Below, piece by piece: positions 10,569 through 21,091 of a DNA stretch of 64,000 bases. The notes below the pieces were generated by a model that worked only from the letters and a program-made list of their open reading frames with translations, made no database searches and was not told the origin of the DNA. Source of the stretch: Christiangramia fulva (GTDB lineage Bacteria > Bacteroidota > Bacteroidia > Flavobacteriales > Flavobacteriaceae); NCBI RefSeq assembly GCF_003024155.1, contig NZ_CP028136.1:3906001-3970000 (forward strand). The letters are read 5' to 3'. Made by a program: the position numbers and the translations under genes. The stretch's first letter is position 1. Every line of letters starts with the position of its first letter.

Positions 10569-11825
10569 TTAAACTATCATCCCCGCCGCAACGGTTTCAT
10601 TAGTATTTTCATCAATTAAAATAATACTGCCCGTAATGCGGTTATCGCGATAGGAGTCGAGCATCAGCCTATTAGTTGTCCTGATCTTTACACGAGCGAT
10701 ATCATTCATTCCAAGATCCTTTTTCTCCATATTTCGATTATAAGAATTGATATCTATCTTATACACCACCTCTTTGATCATGGCACGTTGCTCTTTGGAG
10801 GTATGCATAACAGTGTATTTAGCCCTGGGTTTGGCTGGATCATTATTTAGCCAGCAGAGCATCACATCAAATTCCTGCTCACCTTCCGGCTGGTTATTTT
10901 TCTTTACAATCATATCACCCCGACTTACATCTATATCATCTTCCAAAGTCATTGCTATTGACATGGGAGCATAGGCTTCGTCAACTTCTTTTTCCCCGGC
11001 ATTCATAGATTTGATCTTAGAGGTAAAGCCTGAAGGTAATACGGCAACTTCATCTCCCGTTCTATAAATACCACTGGCAACCCGGCCGGCGTAACCTCTA
11101 TAATCCCTGTGCTCCTCACTTTGTGGCCTCAATACTGTCTGAACGGGAAAGCGAGCATCAATTTTATTTATATCACTACTAATATGAAGGGTTTCCAAAA
11201 TATTTAAAAGGGTACCGCCTCCATACCAGTTCATATTTTCAGACCTGTTTACCACATTATCTCCCAAAAGGGCGCTAATAGGAATAAAACGCACATCTTT
11301 CATTAAAAGTTTCGAGGAAAATTCTTCAAACTCTCCAATGATCTCATTGAATCTATCCTCAGAAAAATCAACAAGATCCATTTTGTTCACACATACGATC
11401 AAATGAGGAATATTCAGCAATGATGCAATAAAAGAGTGTCGTTTTGTCTGCTCTATCACTCCATGCCTGGCATCGATTAGGATCACAGCAGCATTTGCAG
11501 TGGAAGCACCAGTTACCATATTTCTGGTATATTGAATATGCCCTGGGGTATCGGCGATAATGAACTTTCTCTTAGGCGTTGTAAAATACCTGTAGGCCAC
11601 ATCTATAGTGATCCCCTGCTCGCGCTCATCCCGAAGTCCATCGGTAAAAAGCGCCAGGTCCACTCCTTCATGGCCTTTCTTTGCACTTGTCGCACTCACC
11701 GACTCCAGCTGATCTTCAAAAATAGATTTAGAATCGTATAGCAGGCGACCAATTAAGGTACTTTTACCGTCGTCTACGCTTCCTGCTGTTGTAAATCTTA
11801 GTAGTTGGTTGTTATCAATTATCAT
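10569..11825 (-). CDS. cysN: Sulfate adenylyltransferase large subunit (GTPase)
   Basis: GTP-hydrolysing subunit of ATP sulfurylase, which with CysD makes APS from ATP and sulfate. GTPase motifs are in place: GSVDDGKS (15-22), GITIDVAYRYF (71-81), DTPGH (92-96), NKMD (147-150). The length of 418 aa is right for stand-alone CysN without a fused APS kinase, which is encoded separately here as cysC. In many bacteria cysD and cysN are adjacent; here a GxxExxY gene flanked by short repeats separates them. A decayed copy of its 3' end lies at 6876-6994. Confidence 0.96.
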   Translation of the reverse strand: MIIDNNQLLRFTTAGSVDDGKSTLIGRLLYDSKSIFEDQLESVSATSAKKGHEGVDLALFTDGLRDEREQGITIDVAYRYFTTPKRKFIIADTPGHIQYTRNMVTGASTANAAVILIDARHGVIEQTKRHSFIASLLNIPHLIVCVNKMDLVDFSEDRFNEIIGEFEEFSSKLLMKDVRFIPISALLGDNVVNRSENMNWYGGGTLLNILETLHISSDINKIDARFPVQTVLRPQSEEHRDYRGYAGRVASGIYRTGDEVAVLPSGFTSKIKSMNAGEKEVDEAYAPMSIAMTLEDDIDVSRGDMIVKKNNQPEGEQEFDVMLCWLNNDPAKPRAKYTVMHTSKEQRAMIKEVVYKIDINSYNRNMEKKDLGMNDIARVKIRTTNRLMLDSYRDNRITGSIILIDENTNETVAAGMIV

Positions 11826-11873
11826 AGGTAAACATATTTTTTAATCTAATCTAAATATCAGGCTCAATTATTT

Positions 11874-11903
11874 CACGGATTTTGGCGGATTACGCCGATT
11901 TTG
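11874..11903 (-). repeat. Short array of a CGGATT-containing unit, 3' side of the GxxExxY gene
   Basis: On the plus strand, reading towards the gene, the motif CGGATT/CGATT recurs about every 9-10 bp (CACGGATTTTGG, CGGATTACGC, CGATTTTG). The array contains the stop codon of the GxxExxY gene at 11890-11892. The array at 12283-12318 has the same motif in inverted orientation. Confidence 0.7.
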
Positions 11904-12282
11904 TATTGATGAATCTTTTCCAAACGAGGCTTTTTTGTCCGAAGTTCACTAATAAACCCAAGGGCAGTTCAGTGGACCTTAAATAATTTATAACCTGAGC
12001 TTCGGCATCTTTAATCAGAAATGAAGCAGCTTTTATTTCAATAAGGATCTTTTCAAAACACACAAAATCAGCAACAAAAAATTTCTTCATCGGCTGTCCG
12101 TCATACATTAGTTTCAATTTTAATTGTTTCTGAAAATTAATTTTCTGTGAATTAAATTCCTTTTCCAAAGCCTCCTGATAAACTGATTCTAAAAAACCCG
12201 CTCCAAGATTTCGATGCACCTTCATGCACGCACCAATGATCTTGTAGGTTTCTTCCTCGAAAAGTAATTTATTGTCTCCCAT
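11890..12282 (-). CDS. GxxExxY protein (PD-(D/E)XK nuclease-like)
   Basis: A 130-aa protein of the GxxExxY family (PDDEXK_3). The name motif is GFLESVY (29-35), preceded by VHRNLGA. A nuclease-like core follows: Asp72 in VADFVC and the ExK of LIEIKAA (Glu82, Lys84). The molecular role of this family is not established; a nuclease fold is inferred from the motif spacing. It interrupts cysD and cysN. Its ATG directly abuts one repeat array and its stop codon lies inside another, and the upstream cysD stop codon lies inside the first array. That makes it look like an inserted cassette rather than a native member of the sulfate-activation operon. Confidence 0.85.
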   Translation of the reverse strand: MGDNKLLFEEETYKIIGACMKVHRNLGAGFLESVYQEALEKEFNSQKINFQKQLKLKLMYDGQPMKKFFVADFVCFEKILIEIKAASFLIKDAEAQVINYLRSTELPLGLLVNFGQKSLVWKRFINTKSA

Positions 12283-12318
12283 CCAATCCGTGCAATCCGT
12301 ATTAATCAGTGCAATCAG
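12283..12318 (-). repeat. Short array of a CGGATTGCA-like unit between cysD and the GxxExxY gene
   Basis: On the minus strand the sequence reads CTGATTGCA, CTGATTAATA, CGGATTGCA, CGGATTGG and then the ATG of the GxxExxY gene. The TGA stop of cysD (12315-12317) is part of the first unit. It is inverted relative to the array at 11874-11903. Confidence 0.75.
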
Positions 12319-13220
12319 AAGTATCCTTGGCGCTTCCTATCCTCCATCGCAGTCTCACTCCTTTTATCATCGGAACGATCTCCCCGTTCGGTTTTTCTCA
12401 TTGCAGAAACTTCTTCAACAATTTTTTCAAGGCTGTCTGCATCCGATTCTATGCCGCCGGTAATGGTGATATCTCCCAGGGTCCTAAAACGGATCTTCTT
12501 TTTCTCGATTTTTTCTCCTTCTTCCAGGTTCAGATATTCCGAAACCGGGATCCAGGAATTGTTCCTGAATACAACTTCCCTTTCATGGGCAAAATAAAGC
12601 GAAGGAATACTGATGTTTTCCCGTTTTATATAGTTCCAGACATCCATTTCGGTCCAGTTGCTTATAGGAAATGCTCTGAAATGCTCACCTTCGAAATGTT
12701 TTCCGTTCAATAAATTCCACAGTTCCGGACGCTGATTTTTAGGATCCCATTCCCCGAAATCGTTTCGGTGGGAAAAGAACCTCTCCTTCGCACGTGCTTT
12801 TTCTTCATCCCTACGTCCGCCTCCTATCGCGCAATCAACCTTATTTTCTTCGATCGCATCAAGAAGTGTGGTGATTTGAAGTGCATTACGTGTAGCATTC
12901 TTACCTTTTTCCTCAGCGACTCTTCCTTTATCAATAGATTCCTGGACAGAACCAACAATTAATTTCGCCCCCAGGTTTTCTATAAGGTCATCCCTGAATT
13001 TTATCGTTTCAGGAAAGTTATGCCCGGTATCCACATGCATCAGAGGAAACGGAATTTTACTTGGATAAAAAGCCTTTTTGGCCAGGTGCGTGACTACAAT
13101 AGAGTCCTTACCTCCTGAAAACAGAATTACAGGATTCTCGAACTGCGCCCAAACCTCACGAAGTATAAAAATCGCTTCCGATTCAAGTTCATCCAGATAA
13201 TTCAGATAATATTTACTCAT
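12315..13220 (-). CDS. cysD: Sulfate adenylyltransferase small subunit
   Basis: ATP-pyrophosphatase-fold subunit that forms APS from sulfate and ATP together with CysN. With the ATG at 13220 (MSKYYLNYLDELESEAIFIL) the protein is 301 aa, matching the family. The PP-loop SGGKDS is at 35-40, followed by MHVDTGHNFPETI. The C-terminus RKRQGYF is the usual ending, so the gene is intact even though its stop codon falls in a repeat array. A longer in-frame start at 13256 would overlap cysC and is rejected. It lies one base after the cysC stop codon. Confidence 0.96.
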   Translation of the reverse strand: MSKYYLNYLDELESEAIFILREVWAQFENPVILFSGGKDSIVVTHLAKKAFYPSKIPFPLMHVDTGHNFPETIKFRDDLIENLGAKLIVGSVQESIDKGRVAEEKGKNATRNALQITTLLDAIEENKVDCAIGGGRRDEEKARAKERFFSHRNDFGEWDPKNQRPELWNLLNGKHFEGEHFRAFPISNWTEMDVWNYIKRENISIPSLYFAHEREVVFRNNSWIPVSEYLNLEEGEKIEKKKIRFRTLGDITITGGIESDADSLEKIVEEVSAMRKTERGDRSDDKRSETAMEDRKRQGYF

Positions 13221-13221
13221 T

Positions 13222-13812
13222 TTATTTGATTTCGAGTTTTTTTTGCAAAAATACAATTATTCTTTCAGCCGATTTCCCGGCCTCTTCTTCTTTGGTATTT
13301 ATTTCAATATCAGGATTTTTAGGAGCCTCATAAGGCGCGTCAATTCCTGTAAAATTCCTGATCTCTCCTGCTCTCGCCTTTTTATACAGGCCTTTTACAT
13401 CCCTGGCCTCACAAACTTCCATAGGTGTATTTACATAGATTTCAATAAAATCATCGTCCCCTATGATATCTTTTACTACCTGCCTGTCGGCCTTTAGCGG
13501 GGAAATAAAAGAGGCGATCACAACAGTGCCGGAGTTTACAAAAAGTTTGGCAACTTCAGAAATTCTTCTAAGGTTTTCTCTCCTGTCTTCCGCATTGAAC
13601 CCCAGGTTACTATTGAGTCCTTTCCGGATGTTATCACCATCCAGGGAAAAGGTATGAATACCGGCTTCAAAAAGTTTTTTTTCAACCATATTGGCCAGAG
13701 TCGATTTTCCCGAACCGGAAAGTCCGGTGAACCATACAACGAAAGATCGGTGTTTTTTTAAATCCTGCCGATCTTTACGGCATATATGGAAATCATGTGG
13801 AACTATATTCAT
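13222..13812 (-). CDS. cysC: Adenylylsulfate kinase
   Basis: Phosphorylates APS to PAPS, the sulfate donor for sulfotransferases. The Walker A loop GLSGSGKST is at 30-38, followed by the APS-binding stretch SLDGDNIRKGLNSNLGF and the FISPLKADRQ segment conserved in APS kinases. Length of 196 aa is normal. Its start overlaps the end of the DUF2061 gene by 20 bp, and cysD follows one base after its stop. In this locus it links APS made by CysDN to the sulfotransferase at 5713. Confidence 0.96.
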   Translation of the reverse strand: MNIVPHDFHICRKDRQDLKKHRSFVVWFTGLSGSGKSTLANMVEKKLFEAGIHTFSLDGDNIRKGLNSNLGFNAEDRRENLRRISEVAKLFVNSGTVVIASFISPLKADRQVVKDIIGDDDFIEIYVNTPMEVCEARDVKGLYKKARAGEIRNFTGIDAPYEAPKNPDIEINTKEEEAGKSAERIIVFLQKKLEIK

Positions 13813-14248
13813 CTTTTGATTTTATTTCGTGACTACTTCGCTGTTCAAGTCCATAATCGGAATGATACCAAACGCGTTCATGCAAATAATACAACAACAT
13901 TTTTGTAAATACCTCTACAACTCCAATTTTAAGTCCTGTAACAGGATTTCCGGTTAAAATCCATGCTAAAGTCATGGTGTCTAAAGTGCCTACAATTCTC
14001 CAGGTCACCGTTTTGGCGATATGACGCTTTCTGCTATCTCCATTTTGAGTAACTCCGGCCTTGATATTGAACCATACTCTCTCGTGAAGATAATACAGTA
14101 CCATTTTAGTGATCACCTCGGTAAATCCAATCTTCAAGCCCATCCAGGGATTTCCAGTAATGACCCATGAGAGGGTAATGGTATCGAGTGTTCCCACTAT
14201 TCTCCAGGTAACCGATTTAGCGATATGTCTTTTATAAGTTTTAGCCAA
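13793..14248 (-). CDS. Tandem DUF2061 membrane protein
   Basis: A 151-aa protein made of two copies of the DUF2061 domain, residues about 6-60 and 74-128. Both copies share KRHIAKxVTWRIVGTLDT, then TGNPxxGLKIG and KMxLYYLHERVW. Each copy has hydrophobic stretches that could form one or two membrane segments. The function of DUF2061 is unknown. Its place between cysQ (8-bp overlap) and cysC (20-bp overlap) suggests a link to sulfate activation, perhaps in sulfate entry or PAPS/PAP handling, but that is inference from position only. Confidence 0.85.
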   Translation of the reverse strand: MAKTYKRHIAKSVTWRIVGTLDTITLSWVITGNPWMGLKIGFTEVITKMVLYYLHERVWFNIKAGVTQNGDSRKRHIAKTVTWRIVGTLDTMTLAWILTGNPVTGLKIGVVEVFTKMLLYYLHERVWYHSDYGLEQRSSHEIKSKDEYSST

Positions 14249-15032
14249 TTGCGGAAACCAAAAAATAATTATTTAAGAGCTTCTCACGATTATAAAGCAT
14301 TTCTTCACCCGTCTTTTGATCGATCACCTTTAAGCCAACCGCTTTACATATTGCCTGTCCGGCAGCTGTATCCCACTCCATAGTAGGAGCGAAACGTGGA
14401 TAAACATCGGCTTTCCCTTCGGCAACAAGACAAAATTTTAAAGAACTTCCCTTGGAAACAACCTCAGTTTCTTTTTCATATTTTTTCTCAAGTATAGAAA
14501 TGTAATTCCTTGTTTCTTCATTCATATGGGAGCGACTTCCAACCACCTGAATTTTATCAGTAACCTTTTTAGGCCCAATTTTTTCAGAATTTGAATGATC
14601 GAAAGAATTAAAATCGGCTTCTACTTTTTGCCGGTATGCGTTTTCTTTATCGGCATAATATAAAAGATTTTGCGCCGGCACATAGATCACCCCCATTACC
14701 GGCAGTTTGTCTTCAATCAAAGCAATATTGACGGTAAATTCACCATTGCGTTTTAAAAATTCTTTAGTACCATCCAAAGGATCCACAATCCAGCATTTTT
14801 TCCAGTTTTTTCGTTCTTTATAGTCGGTTTGTTTATTTTCTTCACTGATGATTGGAATATCAGTAGATTTGAGATACTCATTTATCGCTACGTTTGAAGC
14901 GGTATCAGCAGTTGTAAGGGGAGAATTATCTCCTTTTTCCTCCACGTTAAATTCCCCGGAATTATAAATGCTCATAATTTCTTTTCCTGCATCAAGAGCA
15001 GCTTTGATGGCGATTCCTAAATTTTTATCCAT
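14241..15032 (-). CDS. cysQ: 3'(2'),5'-bisphosphate nucleotidase
   Basis: Removes the 3' phosphate from PAP (and PAPS), relieving product inhibition after sulfate transfer. It belongs to the lithium-sensitive inositol-phosphatase-like family: ISEEN with Glu64/65, DPLDGTKEF (84-92), and the late EWDTAAGQAI motif. At 263 aa it has the expected length and no signal peptide. The 8-bp overlap with the DUF2061 gene and the neighbouring cysC and cysD put it in the sulfation module. Upstream of its start lies a six-octamer repeat array that forms the far edge of a four-helix-bundle gene cassette. Confidence 0.95.
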   Translation of the reverse strand: MDKNLGIAIKAALDAGKEIMSIYNSGEFNVEEKGDNSPLTTADTASNVAINEYLKSTDIPIISEENKQTDYKERKNWKKCWIVDPLDGTKEFLKRNGEFTVNIALIEDKLPVMGVIYVPAQNLLYYADKENAYRQKVEADFNSFDHSNSEKIGPKKVTDKIQVVGSRSHMNEETRNYISILEKKYEKETEVVSKGSSLKFCLVAEGKADVYPRFAPTMEWDTAAGQAICKAVGLKVIDQKTGEEMLYNREKLLNNYFLVSAIG

Positions 15033-15045
15033 TGTCTTTTATATT

Positions 15046-15093
15046 GTGACGCTGTAATGTTGTGACCGAGTGATCATGTAACGCTATGACCTT
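15046..15093 (-). repeat. Six octamers, GTGACNNN type, far side of four-helix-bundle cassette A
   Basis: On the plus strand the sequence divides cleanly into GTGACGCT, GTAATGTT, GTGACCGA, GTGATCAT, GTAACGCT, ATGACCTT. It lies just upstream of cysQ. It reads towards the cassette gene and is inverted relative to the large array at 15531-15714, which carries the same GTGA core on the minus strand. Confidence 0.75.
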
Positions 15094-15201
15094 GAATTTA
15101 CCTATTTTCTGCATCTCTTCTTAGCATCTGTTACTGATCATTGCATTACTTGATCCATTACAACTCACTTTAAACTATTTATCAATTTTAACAACATTCT
15201 T

Positions 15202-15501
15202 CTAATATTGTTCTTCCAATTCTTTATTTTCCTTTATAAATCCCAGTCTTAATGGGATTTCCAGTTGAGTTTCTACTTCTGCTAATGAACCCAAAGAAAT
15301 ATAAAGAAACCTACTAAATTCTTTACTTCCTTTTCTTGCAGCACCTTCACCAATATTTGAAGGAATAGGAACGGTCGCTCTCCTCAACTGACTTATCAAT
15401 CCAAATTTTTCATCTGCAGGAAAACGTCTGGTCACCTCGTAAACCGCAACAACGAAATCAATACTTTTTTTATAAACTGTTAAATCTTTATGTGATTTCA
15501 T
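15202..15501 (-). CDS. Four-helix-bundle protein (23S rRNA IVS/Avd-like), 3' frameshift
   Basis: A 99-aa open frame of the four-helix-bundle family (TIGR02436/PF05635). Typical features are HKDLTVYKKSIDFVVAVYEV at the start, LISQLRRATVPIPSNIGEG (about 35-53), and GSLAEVETQLEI. The frame stops early after LEEQY. The +1 frame carries straight on with NNIRRMLLKLINSLK-stop, ending at 15165, which is the usual end of this family. A single extra base therefore probably truncates the last helix. The family is known from 23S rRNA intervening sequences and, as Avd, from diversity-generating retroelements; no reverse transcriptase is seen here. It is flanked by octamer arrays. Confidence 0.82.
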   Translation of the reverse strand: MKSHKDLTVYKKSIDFVVAVYEVTRRFPADEKFGLISQLRRATVPIPSNIGEGAARKGSKEFSRFLYISLGSLAEVETQLEIPLRLGFIKENKELEEQY

Positions 15502-15530
15502 TTCAAAAATTCAAATTTCTCTCCCTATTT

Positions 15531-15714
15531 TACATCACAAGATCACTTCATTACTCCATCACTCCTTCACTCCATCACTCCATCACTCCATCACTTCATC
15601 ACTCCATCACTTCATCACCCCTTTACTTCATCACTCCATCACCTCTTCACCCCTTCACTTTTTCACTTTTTCACTTCTTCACTTCTTCACTTCTTCACAT
15701 CTTCACATCTTCAC
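15531..15714 (-). repeat. 23 in-phase octamers, GTGATGGA type
   Basis: On the minus strand, 184 bp divide into 23 consecutive octamers with consensus GTGAWGRA (for example GTGAAGAA, GTGATGGA, GTGATGAA), with only a few GTAA variants. The array starts at the TAG stop codon of ugd (15714-15716) and ends about 30 bp before the start of the four-helix-bundle gene at 15501. There are no unique spacers, so it is not a CRISPR. A long plus-strand open frame here is only translated repeat. Confidence 0.92.
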
Positions 15715-17108
15715 TAACTCCCTATCGCGTAAAATTCAAAACCTATCTTTTCTTTCGATTTTCTTTCCAGCATTCTGCGTCCGTCAAAAAGGAATGCCGG
15801 TTTCAGCATTTCATCATATATCTTTTGCCAGTCATAATCTTTAAACTCATCCCATTCGGTAAGAACTGCCACCGCATGAGCTTCTTTGGTCACTTCGTAA
15901 GGATCTTTAACCACTTTTACCCTCTTCCTGTTTTCTTCTTCGGAACGGGTATTCAAATAATCCAGGTCGGCATAAACCTGTTCTTCTTTTACTTTTGGAT
16001 CGTAAACTACAATTTCAGCCTGTTCATTCAGCAGATAATCGGCTACATAAATAGCTGCCGATTCACGGGTATCGTTGGTATCTTTTTTAAATGCCCAGCC
16101 CAGGAAGCCTATTTTCTTGCCGGAAACAGTATTGAAAAGCGTTCGAACCATATTGGCCGCAAATCTTCGCTTCTGATGATCATTCATAAGGATGACCTGT
16201 TCCCAGTAATTTGCCACTTCATTCAGACCGAAACTTTTAGCAATGTAAACCAGATTCAGAATATCTTTCTGAAAACAACTTCCACCAAAACCTACCGAAG
16301 CTTTTAAGAATTTAGAACCTATTCGTGAGTCCATTCCCACGGCTTTCGCTACTTCATTTACATCGGCGCCCGTCTTTTCACAGAGTTCACTCATCGCGTT
16401 GATGCTTGAAACTCGTTGTGCCAAAAAGGCATTGGCAGTTAATTTTGACAATTCAGAAGACCAGACATTTGTGGTTAAAATATGATCTTTCTCTACCCAG
16501 TGAGCATAGACATCGACAAGGGACTGGACTGCATCTTTACCCGCCTCGGTATCAATATCTCCGCCAATAAGCACGCGATCAGGATCCAGCAGATCTTCTA
16601 CCGCGGTACCTTCAGCAAGGAATTCAGGGTTGGAAAGTATTTGATAATTAACTCCGTTTCCTGTATTGGTTAAAATATTTTTTAAGGTTTCGGCAGTTCT
16701 TACAGGCAAAGTCGATTTTTCAACTACAATCTTATCTGTCGTTGAAACACGTGCGATTTGGCGTGCACAAAGCTCGATATATTTTAAATCGGCAGCCATA
16801 CCCTTTCCAATTCCATAGGTCTTGGTAGGAGTATTCACCGAAATAAAGATCATTTCTGCCCTATCGATCGCAGCATCGATATCGGTAGAAAAGAATAAAT
16901 TTCTACCTCTTGCCTCTTTTACAATATCTGAAAGTCCCGGTTCATAAATGGGAATATTCTCCACATTTTCATCATTCCAGGCTGCAATTCGTTTTTCGTT
17001 GATATCAACTACAGTTACATTGATCTCAGGACATTTTTGCGCGATAACGGCCATTGTTGGACCTCCCACGTATCCTGCACCGATGCAACAGATGTTTTTT
17101 ATATTCAT
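15714..17108 (-). CDS. ugd: UDP-glucose 6-dehydrogenase
   Basis: Oxidises UDP-glucose to UDP-glucuronate using two NAD+. The Rossmann motif is GAGYVGG (10-16), the linker ESTLPV-like region is [12 protein letters not shown] (129-140), and the catalytic Cys278 lies in [10 protein letters not shown]. At 464 aa and with [20 protein letters not shown] at the start it resembles the longer, animal/plant-like subgroup rather than the short bacterial type. It provides uronic acid for the polysaccharide. Its stop codon abuts a 23-octamer repeat array and its start is 9 bp from another array (17118-17149), so small-gene cassettes border it on both sides. Confidence 0.93.
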
Positions 17109-17117
17109 TTCCTAAAA

Positions 17118-17149
17118 GTTAATTAGTTAAATGGTTAACTGGTTAATTG
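17118..17149 (-). repeat. Four octamers, GTTAACTG type, far side of cassette B
   Basis: On the plus strand: GTTAATTA, GTTAAATG, GTTAACTG, GTTAATTG, in perfect 8-bp phase. It lies between the ugd start and the end of the four-helix-bundle gene at 17176. The GTTAA core on this side faces the similar array at 17560-17600 in inverted orientation. Confidence 0.75.
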
Positions 17150-17175
17150 GAAAGTCCAAACAGTTTATCTCCATA

Positions 17176-17553
17176 TCAACTTTTTAATTCATTTTGATTT
17201 CTTAAATACTTTATGTAACCATTAATCAATCTTATGCACGAGTCGGTTATCTCTCTTATTTTTTCTAAAACTTCATTTTTTATATATCCACAGTCATTAG
17301 CTTCTATAGAATGATCAAGTACTTCAGCTACCGAACCTCGGGCGTTTAAAAGAAACCTGATGTTTTCTTTATAATGATACCTTCCCCAGCCTTCGGCAAT
17401 ATTTGCAGTTGCTGAACGGGAAGACCTTAAAAGCTGTGAATGAAGATCATATTTTTCAGAATCAGGCAAATTAGACAAAATCTGTTCTTTAATTACTTTC
17501 TTCAACTCAAAACACTTTTTCCAACACTCAAGCTTTTCAAAATTTTCAGCCAT
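17176..17553 (-). CDS. Four-helix-bundle protein (23S rRNA IVS/Avd-like)
   Basis: A 125-aa intact member of the four-helix-bundle family. Helix signatures include FEKLECWKKCFELKKVIKEQ at the start, LHSQLLRSSRSATANIAEGW (about 37-56) and LLNARGSVAEVLDHSIEA. The sequence differs strongly from the two other family members in this window, so they are not recent tandem copies. No function can be assigned; family members form pentameric helical bundles that bind nucleic acid in retroelements, or occur in rRNA intervening sequences. It sits alone between tviB and ugd with GTTAA-type octamers on both sides. Confidence 0.88.
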   Translation of the reverse strand: MAENFEKLECWKKCFELKKVIKEQILSNLPDSEKYDLHSQLLRSSRSATANIAEGWGRYHYKENIRFLLNARGSVAEVLDHSIEANDCGYIKNEVLEKIREITDSCIRLINGYIKYLRNQNELKS

Positions 17554-17559
17554 GGTTTC

Positions 17560-17600
17560 GTTAATTGGTTAGTTAGTTAATTGGTTAACTGGTTAACTCG
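17560..17600 (-). repeat. Five octamers, GTTAACCA type, upstream of cassette B gene
   Basis: On the minus strand: GTTAACCA, GTTAACCA, ATTAACTA, ACTAACCA, ATTAACGA, then AACC and the ATG of the gene at 17553. All units are in 8-bp phase. It forms an imperfect inverted pair with the array at 17118-17149. Confidence 0.75.
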
Positions 17601-17671
17601 TCAAACATTTTTGTTTTTGGCATTAGGTTTAAGTTTTCAACTTTTAAGTATTGCTAAGTAAAAACAAACGA

Positions 17672-17789
17672 TTCACAAATTCCAAATCACTAATCACCAT
17701 TCCCCGATTAACCATTTCCCAATCACCAATCACCAATCACCAATCACCAATCTCCAATCCCCGATTAACCATTCCCCAATCACCAATCA
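17672..17789 (-). repeat. About 15 heptamers, GTGATTG type, at the 3' end of tviB
   Basis: On the minus strand GTGATTG repeats about every 7 bp with variants GGGAATG and GTTAATC and two 8-bp slips. The TGA stop codon of tviB (17787-17789) is part of the first unit. Unlike the other arrays the period is seven. It lies outside the GTTAACCA array, so two different arrays stand between tviB and the cassette B gene. Confidence 0.88.
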
Positions 17790-19118
17790 CAGCTTCCTAT
17801 CACACCTATCCCCTAAAACTCCCTTGACATCATAAACCACAGCACTTTCAGTCTTTAAAGCATCTAATTCGAGATCAAGGAATTCTTTATGAGCGACTGT
17901 GAGCACTATAGCGTCAAATTTTTGCTGAGGTAATTTACTGGTGGTATTAAGGCCGTATTCATGTTTCACTTCCTCCGGATTGGCAAGCGGATCGTAAATA
18001 GTCAGATTCACTCCATACTCCTTAAGATTCCTTACCACATCAACCACTTTGGTATTGCGGACGTCGGGGCAGTTTTCTTTAAAGGTGATACCCAAAATCA
18101 GAATATTGGCTCCTTTCACTTTAAGATCATTCTGAAGCATTAGTTTTACAACTTCCCCGGCCACATATTGCCCCATACTATCATTCATTCTTCGTCCAGC
18201 AAGGATGATCTCGGGATGATAACCGATCTCCTGTGCTTTTTGAGCCAGGTAATACGGATCTACACCTATACAATGGCCACCCACCAATCCGGGTTTAAAT
18301 GGTAAAAAATTCCACTTGGTACCTGCTGCTTCCAGGACATGCTGAGTGTCGATACCCATCATATTAAAGATCTTCGCCAGCTCATTGACGAAAGCGATAT
18401 TAATATCGCGCTGCGAGTTTTCAATGACCTTGGCGGCCTCAGCCACTTTGATAGTGGGCGCGAGATGGGTGCCGGCAGTGATCACAGATGCGTAAAGTTC
18501 ATTTACTTTCCGGCCGGTTTCCGGAGTAGAACCCGCGGTAACTTTTAGAATTTTCTCAACAGTATGCTCCTTGTCGCCGGGATTTATCCTCTCAGGTGAA
18601 TAGCCTACAAAGAAATCCTCGTTGAATTGGAGTCCGCTGAATTTTTCCAAAACCGGAACACATTCATCTTCGGTCACACCGGGATATACGGTAGATTCAT
18701 AAACCACGACATCTCCTTTTTTCAGAACTTTCCCAACCGTTTCACTACTTTTATAAAGCGGAGTAAGATCAGGACGGTTATTTTTATCTACCGGAGTAGG
18801 CACGGTAATGATATAATAATTGCAGTCTTCAATTTGGCTGAGATCTGTAGTACAAAACAAACCATTTTCAACGGACTTATCCTTTTTAAGAACTGACTGA
18901 AGTAAATCATCTTCCACTTCCAGCGTGGAATCTTTTCCTTTCATCAATTCATTCACCCGCGCCTGGTTGATATCGAAACCCACAACCGGATATTTAACAG
19001 CAAATAATCTGGCCAGCGGAAGACCTACGTATCCAAGACCAATGACGGCTAATTTAGGACTTGGGGAGCCAGTGTTCTGGGGACTGGGTGATTCTTTTTT
19101 ATTTGGTATAGTATTCAT
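17787..19118 (-). CDS. tviB: UDP-N-acetyl-hexosamine 6-dehydrogenase (TviB/WbpO type)
   Basis: A nucleotide-sugar dehydrogenase that oxidises C6 of UDP-GlcNAc or UDP-GalNAc. The Rossmann start is AVIGLGYVGLPLARL (25-39), with VYESTVYPGVTED (139-151) and catalytic Cys283 in GGHCIGVDPYYLAQKA. The HEPG-like GKxxE pattern of ManNAc dehydrogenases is not obvious, and the sequence reads closest to the Vi-antigen/WbpO group. With the epimerase at 20075 it would give UDP-GalNAc-uronate. The N-terminus is odd: residues about 9-22 (Ser/Pro rich) are encoded by array-like octamers, so a cassette edge seems to have extended the coding region. Confidence 0.88.
   Translation of the reverse strand: MNTIPNKKESPSPQNTGSPSPKLAVIGLGYVGLPLARLFAVKYPVVGFDINQARVNELMKGKDSTLEVEDDLLQSVLKKDKSVENGLFCTTDLSQIEDCNYYIITVPTPVDKNNRPDLTPLYKSSETVGKVLKKGDVVVYESTVYPGVTEDECVPVLEKFSGLQFNEDFFVGYSPERINPGDKEHTVEKILKVTAGSTPETGRKVNELYASVITAGTHLAPTIKVAEAAKVIENSQRDINIAFVNELAKIFNMMGIDTQHVLEAAGTKWNFLPFKPGLVGGHCIGVDPYYLAQKAQEIGYHPEIILAGRRMNDSMGQYVAGEVVKLMLQNDLKVKGANILILGITFKENCPDVRNTKVVDVVRNLKEYGVNLTIYDPLANPEEVKHEYGLNTTSKLPQQKFDAIVLTVAHKEFLDLELDALKTESAVVYDVKGVLGDRCDRKL
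19057..19088 (-). repeat. Four octamers, GGACTKGG type, inside the tviB 5' end
   Basis: On the plus strand: GGACTTGG, GGAGCCAG, TGTTCTGG, GGACTGGG. They lie within the coding sequence for the N-terminal extension of TviB and match the cassette C octamer (GACTTGGR) in inverted orientation. Confidence 0.65.
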
Positions 19119-19156
19119 TTATATATAGATCTTTTTTATATTGATTTATTTAACCT

Positions 19157-19188
19157 GGCGACAGGGAGACTGTGGGACGGGGGGAATT
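19157..19188 (-). repeat. Four octamers, GGAGACTG type
   Basis: Plus strand: GGCGACAG, GGAGACTG, TGGGACGG, GGGGAATT. Same core as the cassette C arrays, inverted relative to the array at 19911-20062. Confidence 0.65.
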
Positions 19189-19249
19189 TTTTATTAGTTT
19201 TAGTATTCATATTTTTATTGAGAGCTTTCTTTCAATTTTTATTTGACAT

Positions 19250-19281
19250 GGCGACTAGGGTGACTTGAGAACCGGGAGAAT
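19250..19281 (-). repeat. Four octamers, GGCGACTA type
   Basis: Plus strand: GGCGACTA, GGGTGACT, TGAGAACC, GGGAGAAT. It starts almost identically to the block at 19157 (GGCGACAG), so the two are probably copies. Confidence 0.65.
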
Positions 19282-19360
19282 ATTTATTAATTTGTTCAAT
19301 ATTTCTATAATTTTTTCTATTCATTTTTTCTGAATTTTAAACTAAATAATTTTAGTTAAG

Positions 19361-19455
19361 CACTCTCCTCTTCCCCAAGTCTCCTAGTCTCCCAGTCCCC
19401 TTTTTCTCCTTGTCTCCCCTTCTCCAAGTCTCCTCTTCTCATTTTCCCCCTGTCC
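19361..19455 (-). repeat. Eleven or twelve octamers, GACTTGGA type, just after the cassette C gene
   Basis: Minus strand units include GAAGAGGA, GACTTGGA, GACAAGGA, AGACTAGG and AGACTTGG with one 1-bp slip. Orientation matches the upstream array at 19911-20062. It begins a few bases after the stop of the four-helix-bundle gene at 19461. Confidence 0.8.
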
Positions 19456-19460
19456 AAATC

Positions 19461-19835
19461 TTAAAGCGTCCATTTATTCGGATTAATAATCATCTTTACT
19501 ATCATTCCTAAAATGCTGTTATATTTTGTATAAATGTCAGAATGTTCATTTTCAGCTATATATTTACAAGCCAGGGCATAATCAAGCCAAACCTGAGTTT
19601 CTGCGGCTTCACCTTCAGAATCTGAAAGTTTAGCGACAAAAGCCTTTTCGTACCTGCGTTTGCGCCATGCTTCGGCTAAATTACCGGAAACCGATCTCGA
19701 GGACCTTCGTATCTGATCAGTAAGTGAATATGTTTCATCTTTTGGAAAGGTTTTGGACAGATTATAAATTTCCATTCCAGCTTCAAAAGAAAGCTGATAT
19801 ACCCTTAGATCTTTATGCGTATTAATTTTTTCCAA
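19461..19835 (-). CDS. Four-helix-bundle protein (23S rRNA IVS/Avd-like)
   Basis: A 124-aa intact four-helix-bundle protein. Diagnostic stretches are THKDLRVYQLSFEAGMEIY near the start, SLTDQIRRSSRSVSGNLAEA (about 37-56) and LSDSEGEAAETQVWLDYALA. The start METKIN-like MEKINTHKDL is preceded by AT-rich DNA and then a 19-octamer array. It is the third such gene in 4.5 kb, and its sequence is divergent from the other two. Position between tviC and tviB gives no functional clue; the surrounding arrays suggest it arrived as a separate unit. Confidence 0.88.
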   Translation of the reverse strand: MEKINTHKDLRVYQLSFEAGMEIYNLSKTFPKDETYSLTDQIRRSSRSVSGNLAEAWRKRRYEKAFVAKLSDSEGEAAETQVWLDYALACKYIAENEHSDIYTKYNSILGMIVKMIINPNKWTL

Positions 19836-19910
19836 TTTCCTTAACTACTCACTTTTTAAGATCCCTTTGCTTATAATTTCTCTAAACCTTTTTTATTACT
19901 ATACTATTCT

Positions 19911-20062
19911 CCCTCTCTCCTTTTCTCCCAGTCTCCCAGTCTCGTTGTCAGAAATTCTCCTCTTCCCCAAGTCTCCTCTTCCCCAAGTCTCCTCTTCCCC
20001 AAGTCTCCAAGTCTCCTGTTATCCCAGTCTCCTCTTCCCCTAGTCCCCCAGTCTCCAAGTCT
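19911..20062 (-). repeat. 19 in-phase octamers, GACTTGGA type
   Basis: On the minus strand, 152 bp divide into 19 consecutive octamers with consensus GACTTGGR, alternating in part with GAAGAGGA (for example GACTTGGG, GAAGAGGA repeated three times). Phase is kept across the whole block. It begins 12 bp after the stop codon of the tviC-type epimerase (20075). Confidence 0.92.
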
Positions 20063-20074
20063 TCAATTTTTTCT

Positions 20075-21091
20075 TCACAAATTCTCCCAATACCACTTCA
20101 CAGCCTCCTTTAATCCTGCTTCTATGTTGTACTGCGGATCATATCCCAATAACTTTTTCGCTTTTTCTACCGAAGCTAAAGAATGCGGAATATCTCCAGG
20201 ACGATTTGGCCCATGTTTGACCTCCACATTTTTAATTTCCGCATCATATTCTGAAAGGTATTTTTTCAAGAGCTGTGTTAATTCCTTCAAATTGGTACGG
20301 TCACCCACCGCTGTATTATAAACTTCATTGACAGCTTCCTCATTTTTCGTAGTCAAGGCAAGCAGATTCATCTGAATAACATTGTCTATATAAGTGAAAT
20401 CACGCGAATAAGTTCCGTCGCCATTGATCACCGGACTCTCATGCTTCATGAACTGCATCACGAATTTTGGAATTACCGCGGCATAAGCACCATTAGGATC
20501 CTGTTTCCTTCCGAAGACATTAAAATAGCGCAAACCTATACTGTCCAAACCATAGGTTGAGCTGAAAATATCAGCATATAATTCATTGACGTACTTTGTA
20601 ATCGCATAGGGCGATAAAGGCTTTCCTATGATGTCTTCAACCTTAGGAAGATTTTCTGAATCACCATAGGTAGACGAGCTGGCGGCGTAAACAAATCGCT
20701 TAACACCGGCATCACGACTGGCTACCAACATATTCAGAAATCCGGTCACGTTAACCTCATTGCTGGTTATCGGATCTTTCAGGGAGCGCGGCACGGAACC
20801 TAAAGCGGCTTCGTGGAGTACAAAATCTACTCCTCCACAGGCTTTTTTACAGGTTTCCAGATCACGTATATCACCTTCCATTAATTCAAAGGAAGAATTA
20901 CCGGTTAAAGCCTCGATATTTTTACGGTGTCCCGTAGCAAAATTATCAAGACATCGCACCTCAGATCCCAGTTCTAACAATGTTTCGCAGAGATTAGAAC
21001 CAATGAATCCGGCTCCGCCGGTTACTAAAATTTTAGAGGAAGAAATTATTTTTTTCTGTTCTTCAGAAATCAAGAGATTGAATTTTAACAA
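20075..21091 (-). CDS. tviC: UDP-N-acetylglucosamine 4-epimerase (TviC/WbpP type SDR)
   Basis: Extended short-chain dehydrogenase that interconverts UDP-GlcNAc and UDP-GalNAc (and their uronates in the Vi pathway). NAD-binding GGAGFIGS is at 25-32, the Ser-rich active-site strand is [10 protein letters not shown] (136-145), and the catalytic pair is Tyr162/Lys166 in [14 protein letters not shown]. The stretch [16 protein letters not shown] is characteristic of the WbpP/TviC subgroup. It precedes the TviB-type dehydrogenase in the operon, separated by cassette C. The symbol follows this subgroup; substrate specificity is inferred. Confidence 0.88.

Follow-up and report, generated by a model that had tools for sequence, protein, structure and literature searches.

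A 64-kb stretch (the window) of the single-contig, 4.38-Mb genome of Christiangramia fulva carries a minus-strand polysaccharide and sulfation operon, four gaps of which are filled by one GxxExxY gene and three genes for four-helix-bundle (4HB) proteins. These four loci probably belong to a widespread class of mobile cassettes that each carry a single gene. As we picture it, a cassette would consist of one small open reading frame (ORF), of either the 4HB or the GxxExxY (PD-(D/E)XK) type, flanked by two end arms in which a short word is repeated; in periodic arms, the unit would usually be 7–8 bp for 4HB cassettes, and the arms would typically have opposite orientation at the two ends. Comparison with relatives shows 4HB and GxxExxY genes that appear to have been inserted together with their arms, forming one small mobile unit. 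Arms and ORF are either both present or both missing, as a single block; the cassettes of the genus lie just past a stop codon, for the most part within an operon and in sense orientation; related proteins go with the same word at unrelated sites; and cassettes decay in place and leave remnants, at junctions that are reused, once by another protein family. A sequence-only reading of the window had placed the four genes in operon gaps on the operon strand, which profile matches on the minus strand bear out, and its idea of mobile cassettes is upheld by empty junctions, patchy occupancy, unrelated occupants, words that follow the protein, and a 438-bp cassette found at unrelated sites.

Occupied and empty junctions

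The C. fulva genome has 17 genes that match TIGR02436 (4HB) and four that match TIGR04256 (GxxExxY). Most of its other 4HB genes have a short word on both sides, extending from the upstream stop codon to just before the next start, and the word is different in each cassette. Their neighbours are core genes (hisH/hisA, ruvX/def, sufA/sufB, fadB/fadA, lepA/yebC, ruvC/hemN, and folD/ffh). In the genus, 23 of 24 genomes have a 4HB match, with 0 to 17 copies among the matches listed. From at least 150 4HB matches in this set, 141 cassettes were parsed, of which 120 had scorable arms and 129 were folded. Between two genes of the same direction as the cassette ORF lie 129 of the 141 parsed cassettes; the ORF starts a median of 37 nt past the codirectional upstream stop and ends a median of 38 nt before the next start, and internal stops occur in 13/141. 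The parsed cassettes fall into 28 sites, 20 of which are common to more than one genome. By site, the orientation is sense in 24 cases, antisense in one, and was called mixed in three (sites 23, 24, and 26, called ‘same/opp’ under a 300-nt limit on the neighbour search). The call for site 23 is wrong, because this site is cassette 4 of the window, where the neighbour tviB runs in the same direction 342 nt away. The possibility that the ORF flips within its arms was considered and rejected: the nine antisense cassettes all belong to one site, and no orientation polymorphism was seen.

Occupancy is patchy. Across the 24 genus genomes, with a junction scored as empty if it had no match among the matches listed, cassettes occupy ruvX/def in 8/23, hisH/hisA in 6/24, mvd/mvk in 8/24, sufA/sufB in 12/23, fadA/acd in 3/22, and ruvC/hemN in 8/24. 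Where sufA/sufB is occupied, the cassette begins at the stop codon and extends up to the native pre-start sequence. A 138-bp remnant is present in one genome; without a cassette, the junction measures about 50–62 bp and contains a small hairpin. The sequence of this hairpin varies by species (L052, L061–L064, L069, and L071). The hisH/hisA gap is 0, 1, and 7 bp in three of the ten junctions without a listed cassette. At mvd/mvk, two genomes (G007, locus L185; G021, locus L190) have other small open frames in place of the 4HB cassette.

For the sites in the window, we read 30 loci among roughly 100 listed matches in relatives. The ugd/cysQ junction is empty in three of the ten ugd loci read, with gaps of 2, 2, and 11 bp vs. 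681 bp here, and the other seven have a different gene next to ugd. Likewise, tviC/tviB is empty in four of the seven tviC loci read (gaps of 2, 4, 12, and 14 bp vs. 956 bp here), another gene being next in the remainder. Among nine relatives read at cysD/cysN, six are empty with a gap of 28–76 bp, one (G019) holds an intact 4HB cassette, and two (G004 and G009) retain about 168 bp of array remnants with words resembling those of G019. The same junction is therefore occupied by two protein families, GxxExxY here and 4HB in G019. At several genus sites, the 4HB proteins of different species have no BLAST similarity to one another, and each has its own arms. The sequence-only reading had named as a point against itself that related strains might all be alike; cassette sets differ between species, and many sites are common by descent. 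In the sufA/sufB host-tree reconstruction, there were 3–8 changes per junction, and family labels gave 7 and 8 at two sites.

Arms and their proteins

The two arms of a cassette match each other. In the 120 genus cassettes with scorable arms, a cassette's own arm pair had a mean of −20.9 kcal/mol, as against −9.3 with a partner from another site and −10.9 after shuffling, and 119 of the pairs were better than their own shuffled mean. Swapping arms between cassettes at the same site gave a worse match in 39/39 pairs of unrelated 4HB proteins, in 142/146 pairs at 30–60 per cent identity, and in 69/100 pairs at 60–75 per cent identity. Since swapped arms match worse, the arms belong to the cassette and not to the site. 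Within the C. fulva genome, the inverted match of 11 of the 17 4HB genes beats >95 per cent of other partners.

The word also goes with the protein. Pairs of 4HB proteins that are at least 70 per cent identical and have no flank homology show a mean arm score of 15.9 (random, 9.15), and 0.81 of the 16 pairs exceed the random 95th percentile; these different-site pairs reuse some loci (L336 and L391) and so represent fewer independent events. Word sharing is weak at 60–70 per cent identity (0.31 of 86 pairs) and slight lower down (0.13 of 1627 pairs at 50–60 per cent and 0.06 of 6452 at 40–50 per cent). Three loci from KSB1, Nitrospirae, and Desulfobacteraceae (L364, L389, and L390), with proteins 66–72 per cent identical, have GGCACAAAG-type words in common. 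The words of GxxExxY cassettes are more alike across the phylum, with 22 of 29 loci above every control at the rbfA gene; words common to 4HB and GxxExxY cassettes were looked for, and the sharing was weak. The arms have a polarity, the 5′ arm being G-rich on the sense strand: G exceeds C in 12/18, 16/19, 44/56, and 17/25 periodic 5′ arms and in 2/13, 2/19, 8/48, and 4/23 periodic 3′ arms, at a looser periodicity bar that 2/30 rbfA 5′ flanks pass as well. The cassette ORF is under purifying selection, with a median ratio of nonsynonymous to synonymous substitution rates (dN/dS) of 0.080 and no value above 0.5 in the 83 of 171 same-site pairs that have a usable dS.

Among 80 Bacteroidota genomes, TIGR02436 has matches in 61, TIGR04256 in 39, and PF04480 in 45. 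Some PF04480 matches lie in long ORFs; the DUF559 set comprises 21 of 30 loci, ORFs >260 aa or near a contig end being left out. Flanks of 110 nt were compared by a local-alignment score against shuffles, with rbfA as the control gene; this score replaced an earlier duplex pass, in which 7/29 4HB loci had z < −3. Inverted arms with z > 3 were found in 14/29 4HB, 17/29 GxxExxY, 7/21 small DUF559, and 0/30 rbfA loci. Periodic flanks occur in 18/29 4HB loci (mainly with period 7), 3/29 GxxExxY, 2/21 DUF559, and 0/30 rbfA loci, and a locus's own arms beat >95 per cent of swapped partners in 13/29, 14/29, 6/21, and 3/30 cases, respectively. Next to 4HB and GxxExxY genes, arrays and arms that match are far more frequent than next to rbfA, and the sequence-only reading had named a comparison with random genes as a possible point against itself. 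Several small DUF559 genes (L269, L272, L273, L279, L280, and L285) have inverted arms of another build, namely self-complementary G/C-rich hairpins; an in-frame G/C-rich repeat coding SPSLPSPQGPQGPSPSLPSP, in the gene upstream of the 4HB ORF at locus L008 (C. fulva genome, near 38655), is reminiscent of arms around DUF559 genes.

A wide set, drawn from Bacteroidota, Anaerolineae, Omnitrophota, KSB1, Nitrospirae, Desulfobacteraceae, and others, has inverted arms in 53 and periodic flanks in 38 of 76 scored loci (76/80 were scored; the set contains near relatives, and its loci are not independent). In the cyanobacterial order of Gloeocapsopsis, where 29 of 30 loci were scored, inverted arms are present in 21/29 and periodic flanks in 24/29 (with a 7- or 14-bp period in 21).

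In the window itself, a periodicity scan of the whole 64 kb (64-nt scanning windows, periods 6–10, bar of 0.62, 20 block-shuffles as control) found stretches at or above the bar only beside the three 4HB genes: 15513–15751 (0.91, period 8), 17664–17810 (0.83, period 7), 19361–19457 (0.67, period 8), and 19980–20078 (0.69, period 8); the shuffle maximum was 0.55. The sequence-only reading had all four genes boxed by repeat arrays. This stands for the 4HB genes, where the periodicity of the window is strongest, and falls short for the GxxExxY gene, whose array is short (3.6 units, 12284–12316) and under the bar. Arrays do begin at or near the upstream stop codon, as had been read, with cysD TGA, ugd TAG, and tviB TGA in or abutting an array and the tviC stop nearby (Table 1). 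The small proteins are indeed divergent (35 and 31 per cent identity for the two window 4HB pairs compared) and the arm words differ, in agreement with the view that the cassettes are not tandem duplicates. The further claim that the arrays flanking a gene face inward as inverted repeats is correct for cassette 1, is seen by eye only in cassette 2, where the 3′ words are degenerate (left/right scores over 150-nt arms: inverted 10.0, direct 10.5), and fails for cassettes 3 and 4, whose nearest arrays are direct (direct 24.0 and 25.5; inverted 9.5 and 8.0). Cassette 3 has two arrays with unlike words, the 7-bp GTGATTG by tviB and the 8-bp GTTAACCA by the gene. The inverted copies in cassette 4 lie at about 19150–19185 and 19250–19280, and also within the tviB start at 19060–19098; the GTTAAC word is self-complementary. 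In cassette 2, the 4HB protein matches its profile only up to position 89, out of 106 (Pfam) or 109 (TIGR). Gene names are our own reading of the translations, except those backed by profile matches.

Table 1. Genes and arrays of the four cassettes in the window.
Feature	Position	Strand	Context and composition
GxxExxY gene, cassette 1	11890..12282	-	cysD/cysN gap; TIGR04256, PF13366 PD-(D/E)XK
5′ arm, cassette 1	12283..12317	-	CGGATTGCA-type units; cysD stop TGA (12315-12317) begins first unit
3′ arm, cassette 1	11866..11889	-	Inverted, AATCCG words; ahead of cysN (10569-11825)
4HB gene, cassette 2	15202..15501	-	ugd/cysQ gap; TIGR02436, PF05635; C-terminally short
5′ array, cassette 2	15543..15716	-	8-bp units GTGATGGA, GTGAAGAT; takes in ugd stop codon, runs on directly
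3′ side, cassette 2	15034..15190	-	Degenerate direct words, then inverted GTCAC-type (by eye); ahead of cysQ (14241-15032)
4HB gene, cassette 3	17176..17553	-	tviB/ugd gap; TIGR02436, PF05635
Outer 5′ array, cassette 3	17685..17790	-	7-bp GTGATTG units; tviB stop codon (17787-17789) inside
Inner 5′ array, cassette 3	17560..17596	-	8-bp GTTAACCA-type units
3′ array, cassette 3	17117..17150	-	GTTAACCA-type, direct to inner 5′ array; palindromic core; ahead of ugd
4HB gene, cassette 4	19461..19835	-	tviC/tviB gap; TTG start; TIGR02436, PF05635
5′ array, cassette 4	19907..20066	-	8/16-bp units GGAGACTT, GGGGAAGA; begins ~12 nt past tviC stop
Near 3′ array, cassette 4	19364..19440	-	Direct to 5′ array
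Far 3′ side, cassette 4	19150..19280	-	Two inverted array copies, AT-rich spacer (by eye)
Array words in tviB start	19060..19118	-	Code for ESPSPQNTGSPSP, without counterpart in relatives read

Arrays close to stop codons can alter the ends of core genes. The N-terminal extension of tviB, ESPSPQNTGSPSP, is coded by array words, and the tviB of relatives starts a few residues ahead of the Rossmann motif; the end of hisH in the C. fulva genome is, by eye, altered by the stop-proximal array. Elsewhere in this genome (4136607–4137508), two GxxExxY genes that are 98 per cent identical (L019 and L020) stand in tandem beside an apparent hsdS tail, and the repeated flanking sequence suggests a tandem duplication.

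Movement and alternative explanations

The reading to which we commit is that of a DNA-level cassette moved in trans by a putative helper. Because word and protein go together and arm mismatches have no G:U bias, the arms may be ends at the DNA level, recognised by the protein that the cassette itself encodes. The cassette would live off host transcription, which would account for its sense orientation, and its arrays might lengthen by slippage after insertion. Since the 4HB protein has, to our knowledge, no catalytic site, the helper would act in trans, and we would expect it to be a nuclease (GxxExxY- or DUF559-like) and not a reverse transcriptase. A reverse-transcriptase helper was considered and rejected: copy numbers of RVT_1 and 4HB genes are uncorrelated (Spearman 0.03), 8 of the 13 genomes with at least ten 4HB genes have no RVT_1 match, and RVT_1 has 0 matches in the C. 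fulva genome. Copy numbers of GxxExxY genes do follow those of 4HB genes (correlation 0.65, without correction for phylogeny).

The sequence-only reading had suggested that the arrays could pair in RNA, and the cassettes might on that account be RNA-level intervening sequences (IVSs), in which base-paired arms in the transcript would hold the ORF in a loop and RNase III would excise the whole, as in 23S rRNA. Genus-wide folds agree with pairing, with arms paired over at least 10 bp in 105/129 cassettes and in 26/129 when the right arm is swapped; the empty sufA/sufB gap contains a small hairpin whose sequence varies; and the size and protein family match those of the Coxiella 23S IVS (PMC4990558). 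Against this explanation, window folds pair the arms across the ORF above the mean of 30 arm-shuffles in 4/4 cassettes and yet within the shuffled range (values, with shuffle mean/maximum in parentheses: 20 (8.7/25), 39 (28.0/62), 32 (14.6/37), and 41 (36.9/86)), and two of the four have direct nearest arrays. Mismatches in 4HB arms show no excess of G:U (147 G:U-compatible vs. 179 A:C, alignments scoring under 12 being left out; 26 vs. 48 in the cyanobacterial set alone; 37 vs. 33 for GxxExxY arms). Selection for an RNA stem was rejected on this test, and DNA-level ends therefore fit better than RNA pairing. Rfam gives no match in window positions 11000–21000, and only tRNA and Acido-Lenti-1 on 20 wide-set loci; in a KSB1 metagenome-assembled genome (L364:2986–3604), two Acido-Lenti-1 RNA copies lie 0.5 kb apart near a 4HB cassette. 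The pairing part of the suggestion is weak, and excision at the RNA level seems unlikely to us. TRAP offers a model for a protein ring that binds a repeated word in mRNA, and the arms could similarly be control sites of autoregulatory leaders, bound by a 4HB ring in its own mRNA, instead of element ends. The correlation of word and protein and the sense-strand G-richness of 5′ arms speak for such leaders, as do two solved 4HB relatives (2rld and 2gsc) with five chains per entry. Leaders leave unexplained the second, inverted arm and the similar arms around GxxExxY genes, and they are compatible with mobility; we regard them as an improbable account of the arms.

Two explanations place the movement elsewhere. 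The 4HB genes could be old operon genes inherited by descent, with arrays that are slippage products and have no role in movement; orthologous 4HB genes do occur at many shared sites, and long arrays resemble slippage products. This is very improbable, given arm words that agree on the two sides of the ORF and vary from one cassette to the next, the absence of both inverted arms with z > 3 and strongly periodic flanks at rbfA (0/30 each), empty junctions of 0–14 bp, and unrelated proteins at one junction. It is already contradicted by the pair L465 and L478, in two cyanobacterial genomes (G144 and G143), which have 438 bp in common at 92.9 per cent identity between unlike flanks, the homology stopping in the GGCAAAA arms. 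The cassettes could otherwise be passengers of ordinary elements, such as MITEs (miniature inverted-repeat transposable elements), plasmids, or phages, whose ends have since decayed. In one genome of the Gloeocapsopsis order (G149), L461 and L462 are 99.8 per cent identical over 576 bp, and this cassette was probably moved by a MITE-like carrier, because an extra TAGGGCTGTTTCATTCT terminal repeat lies outside the arms. The homology of L465 and L478, by contrast, ends at the arms, and we consider a passenger origin of the class decidedly unlikely; since these two are the only bounded pairs found in the comparison, the case against passengers draws on few events. A third pair, L459 and L460 in G115, lies in a 3.5-kb near-identical duplication and is uninformative.

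Several observations, including the outer ends of L461/L462, weigh against mobile cassettes as we describe them. In the window, 36 of 46 adjacent gene pairs are codirectional in any case; the sense bias over sites (24 vs. 1) counts as the stronger fact. Identities of 4HB proteins within a site are often 70–95 per cent, which means that many sites are inherited, and several junctions scored as empty, by a score that depends on the matches listed, hold remnants, so that decay in place is common; for both reasons, loss accounts for part of the patchiness. The one-gene host tree is weak, with 5/20 inner branches well supported, and does not settle gain vs. loss. When the proteins are more alike, own arms do no better than swapped ones (53/118 pairs at 75–85 per cent identity and 15/29 above 85 per cent). 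A first test of 49 loci placed 8/49 inverted scores above the 99th percentile of a pool that includes orthologues. Across the phylum, direct left/right matches with z > 3 occur in 4/29 4HB, 8/29 GxxExxY, 9/21 DUF559, and 1/30 rbfA loci. The correlation of 0.65 between 4HB and GxxExxY copy numbers is uncorrected for phylogeny, and the L465 copy is broken by an internal stop. No transposase or fixed terminal sequence was found, and no target duplication was noticed in the junctions inspected, among which no systematic search was made.

Relation to known systems

We propose, tentatively, that the cassettes may be mobile elements of a novel kind, in which one small protein and arrays of the word that it recognises make up a self-contained unit that encodes no transposase, integrase, or reverse transcriptase and lands at stop codons inside operons. 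This design would be common to three or more unrelated families (4HB, GxxExxY, and, to some extent, DUF559), and many cyanobacterial and Xanthomonas heptamers would be its ends or scars. If true, this would join three puzzles, namely the 4HB (IVP/S23p) proteins, the heptamer repeats of operons, and the scattered small PD-(D/E)XK genes. On this reading, every 4HB protein should recognise the word of its own arms, and natural before-and-after junctions are supplied here for many insertions.

Both the repeats alone and the protein alone are known; as far as we found, the combined cassette has not yet been described as one thing. We found no literature that joins heptamer repeats with the 4HB protein or describes operon 4HB/GxxExxY cassettes in a search whose coverage excluded preprints and most subscription journals. 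In the available part of PMC4692102, 7-bp arrays prefer aligned gene pairs and the vicinity of stop codons; inverted pairs are frequent in Xanthomonas and rare in Nostoc, and the GGGAATC and GGGGA(C/T)T heptamers of Xanthomonas and Nostoc are read as G-quadruplex formers. A cyanobacterial cassette (L456) has similar GGGGACT/GGGGATT arms around its 4HB gene, whereas that account, in the part available, has no boxed gene. Cyanobacterial short tandemly repeated repetitive sequences (STRRs) are likewise heptamers between operon genes, for example hupS–hupL, described as hairpin-forming and of a function not known, in excerpts (PMC2670836) that make no link to 4HB proteins. Three STRR words were compared with the 29 cyanobacterial loci: CCCCAGT is in the arms of one (L456) and the other two are in none. 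Cyanobacterial arms are mostly other heptamers, and the window arrays have 7–8-bp units of other sequence. Some published heptamer repeats look like such arms; we state the link for some only, because inverted pairs are rare in Nostoc and 1/29 cyanobacterial loci has a published STRR word.

The 4HB protein is in print as the protein of 23S rRNA IVSs. The Coxiella IVS has 428 nt, a 28-bp stem of terminal inverted repeats, and an S23p ORF (PMC4990558). On that description, the cassettes resemble it in the PF05635 family, in size (428 nt vs. about 430–440 bp here, from medians), in terminal inverted repeats when taken genus-wide, in sporadic occurrence, and in the central ORF. IVSs, however, lie in rRNA helices and are cut by RNase III (PMC4990558), whereas the cassettes lie between protein genes past stop codons, have word arrays as ends, and give no sign of RNA-level selection; the cassette flanks are protein genes, consistent with the Rfam result for the window. 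The IVS-type ORF (PF05635/TIGR02436) is present in cassettes 2–4, cassette 1 carrying GxxExxY, and complementary termini are seen genus-wide and not for the nearest arms of cassettes 3 and 4. Diversity-generating retroelements have in Avd a distant 4HB relative, and one window protein matches NF033474 and bAvd below cut-offs; unlike for these elements, there is no RVT_1 match in the C. fulva genome. With MITEs, the cassettes have in common small size, inverted ends, and patchy distribution, but their ORF is under purifying selection and they have a word per cassette instead of a common fixed terminal sequence, the extra ends of L461/L462 being the exception. Because the cassettes are not IVSs by location, we file them as a variant among the small selfish elements, and the view that they form a separate class has a fair chance of being right.

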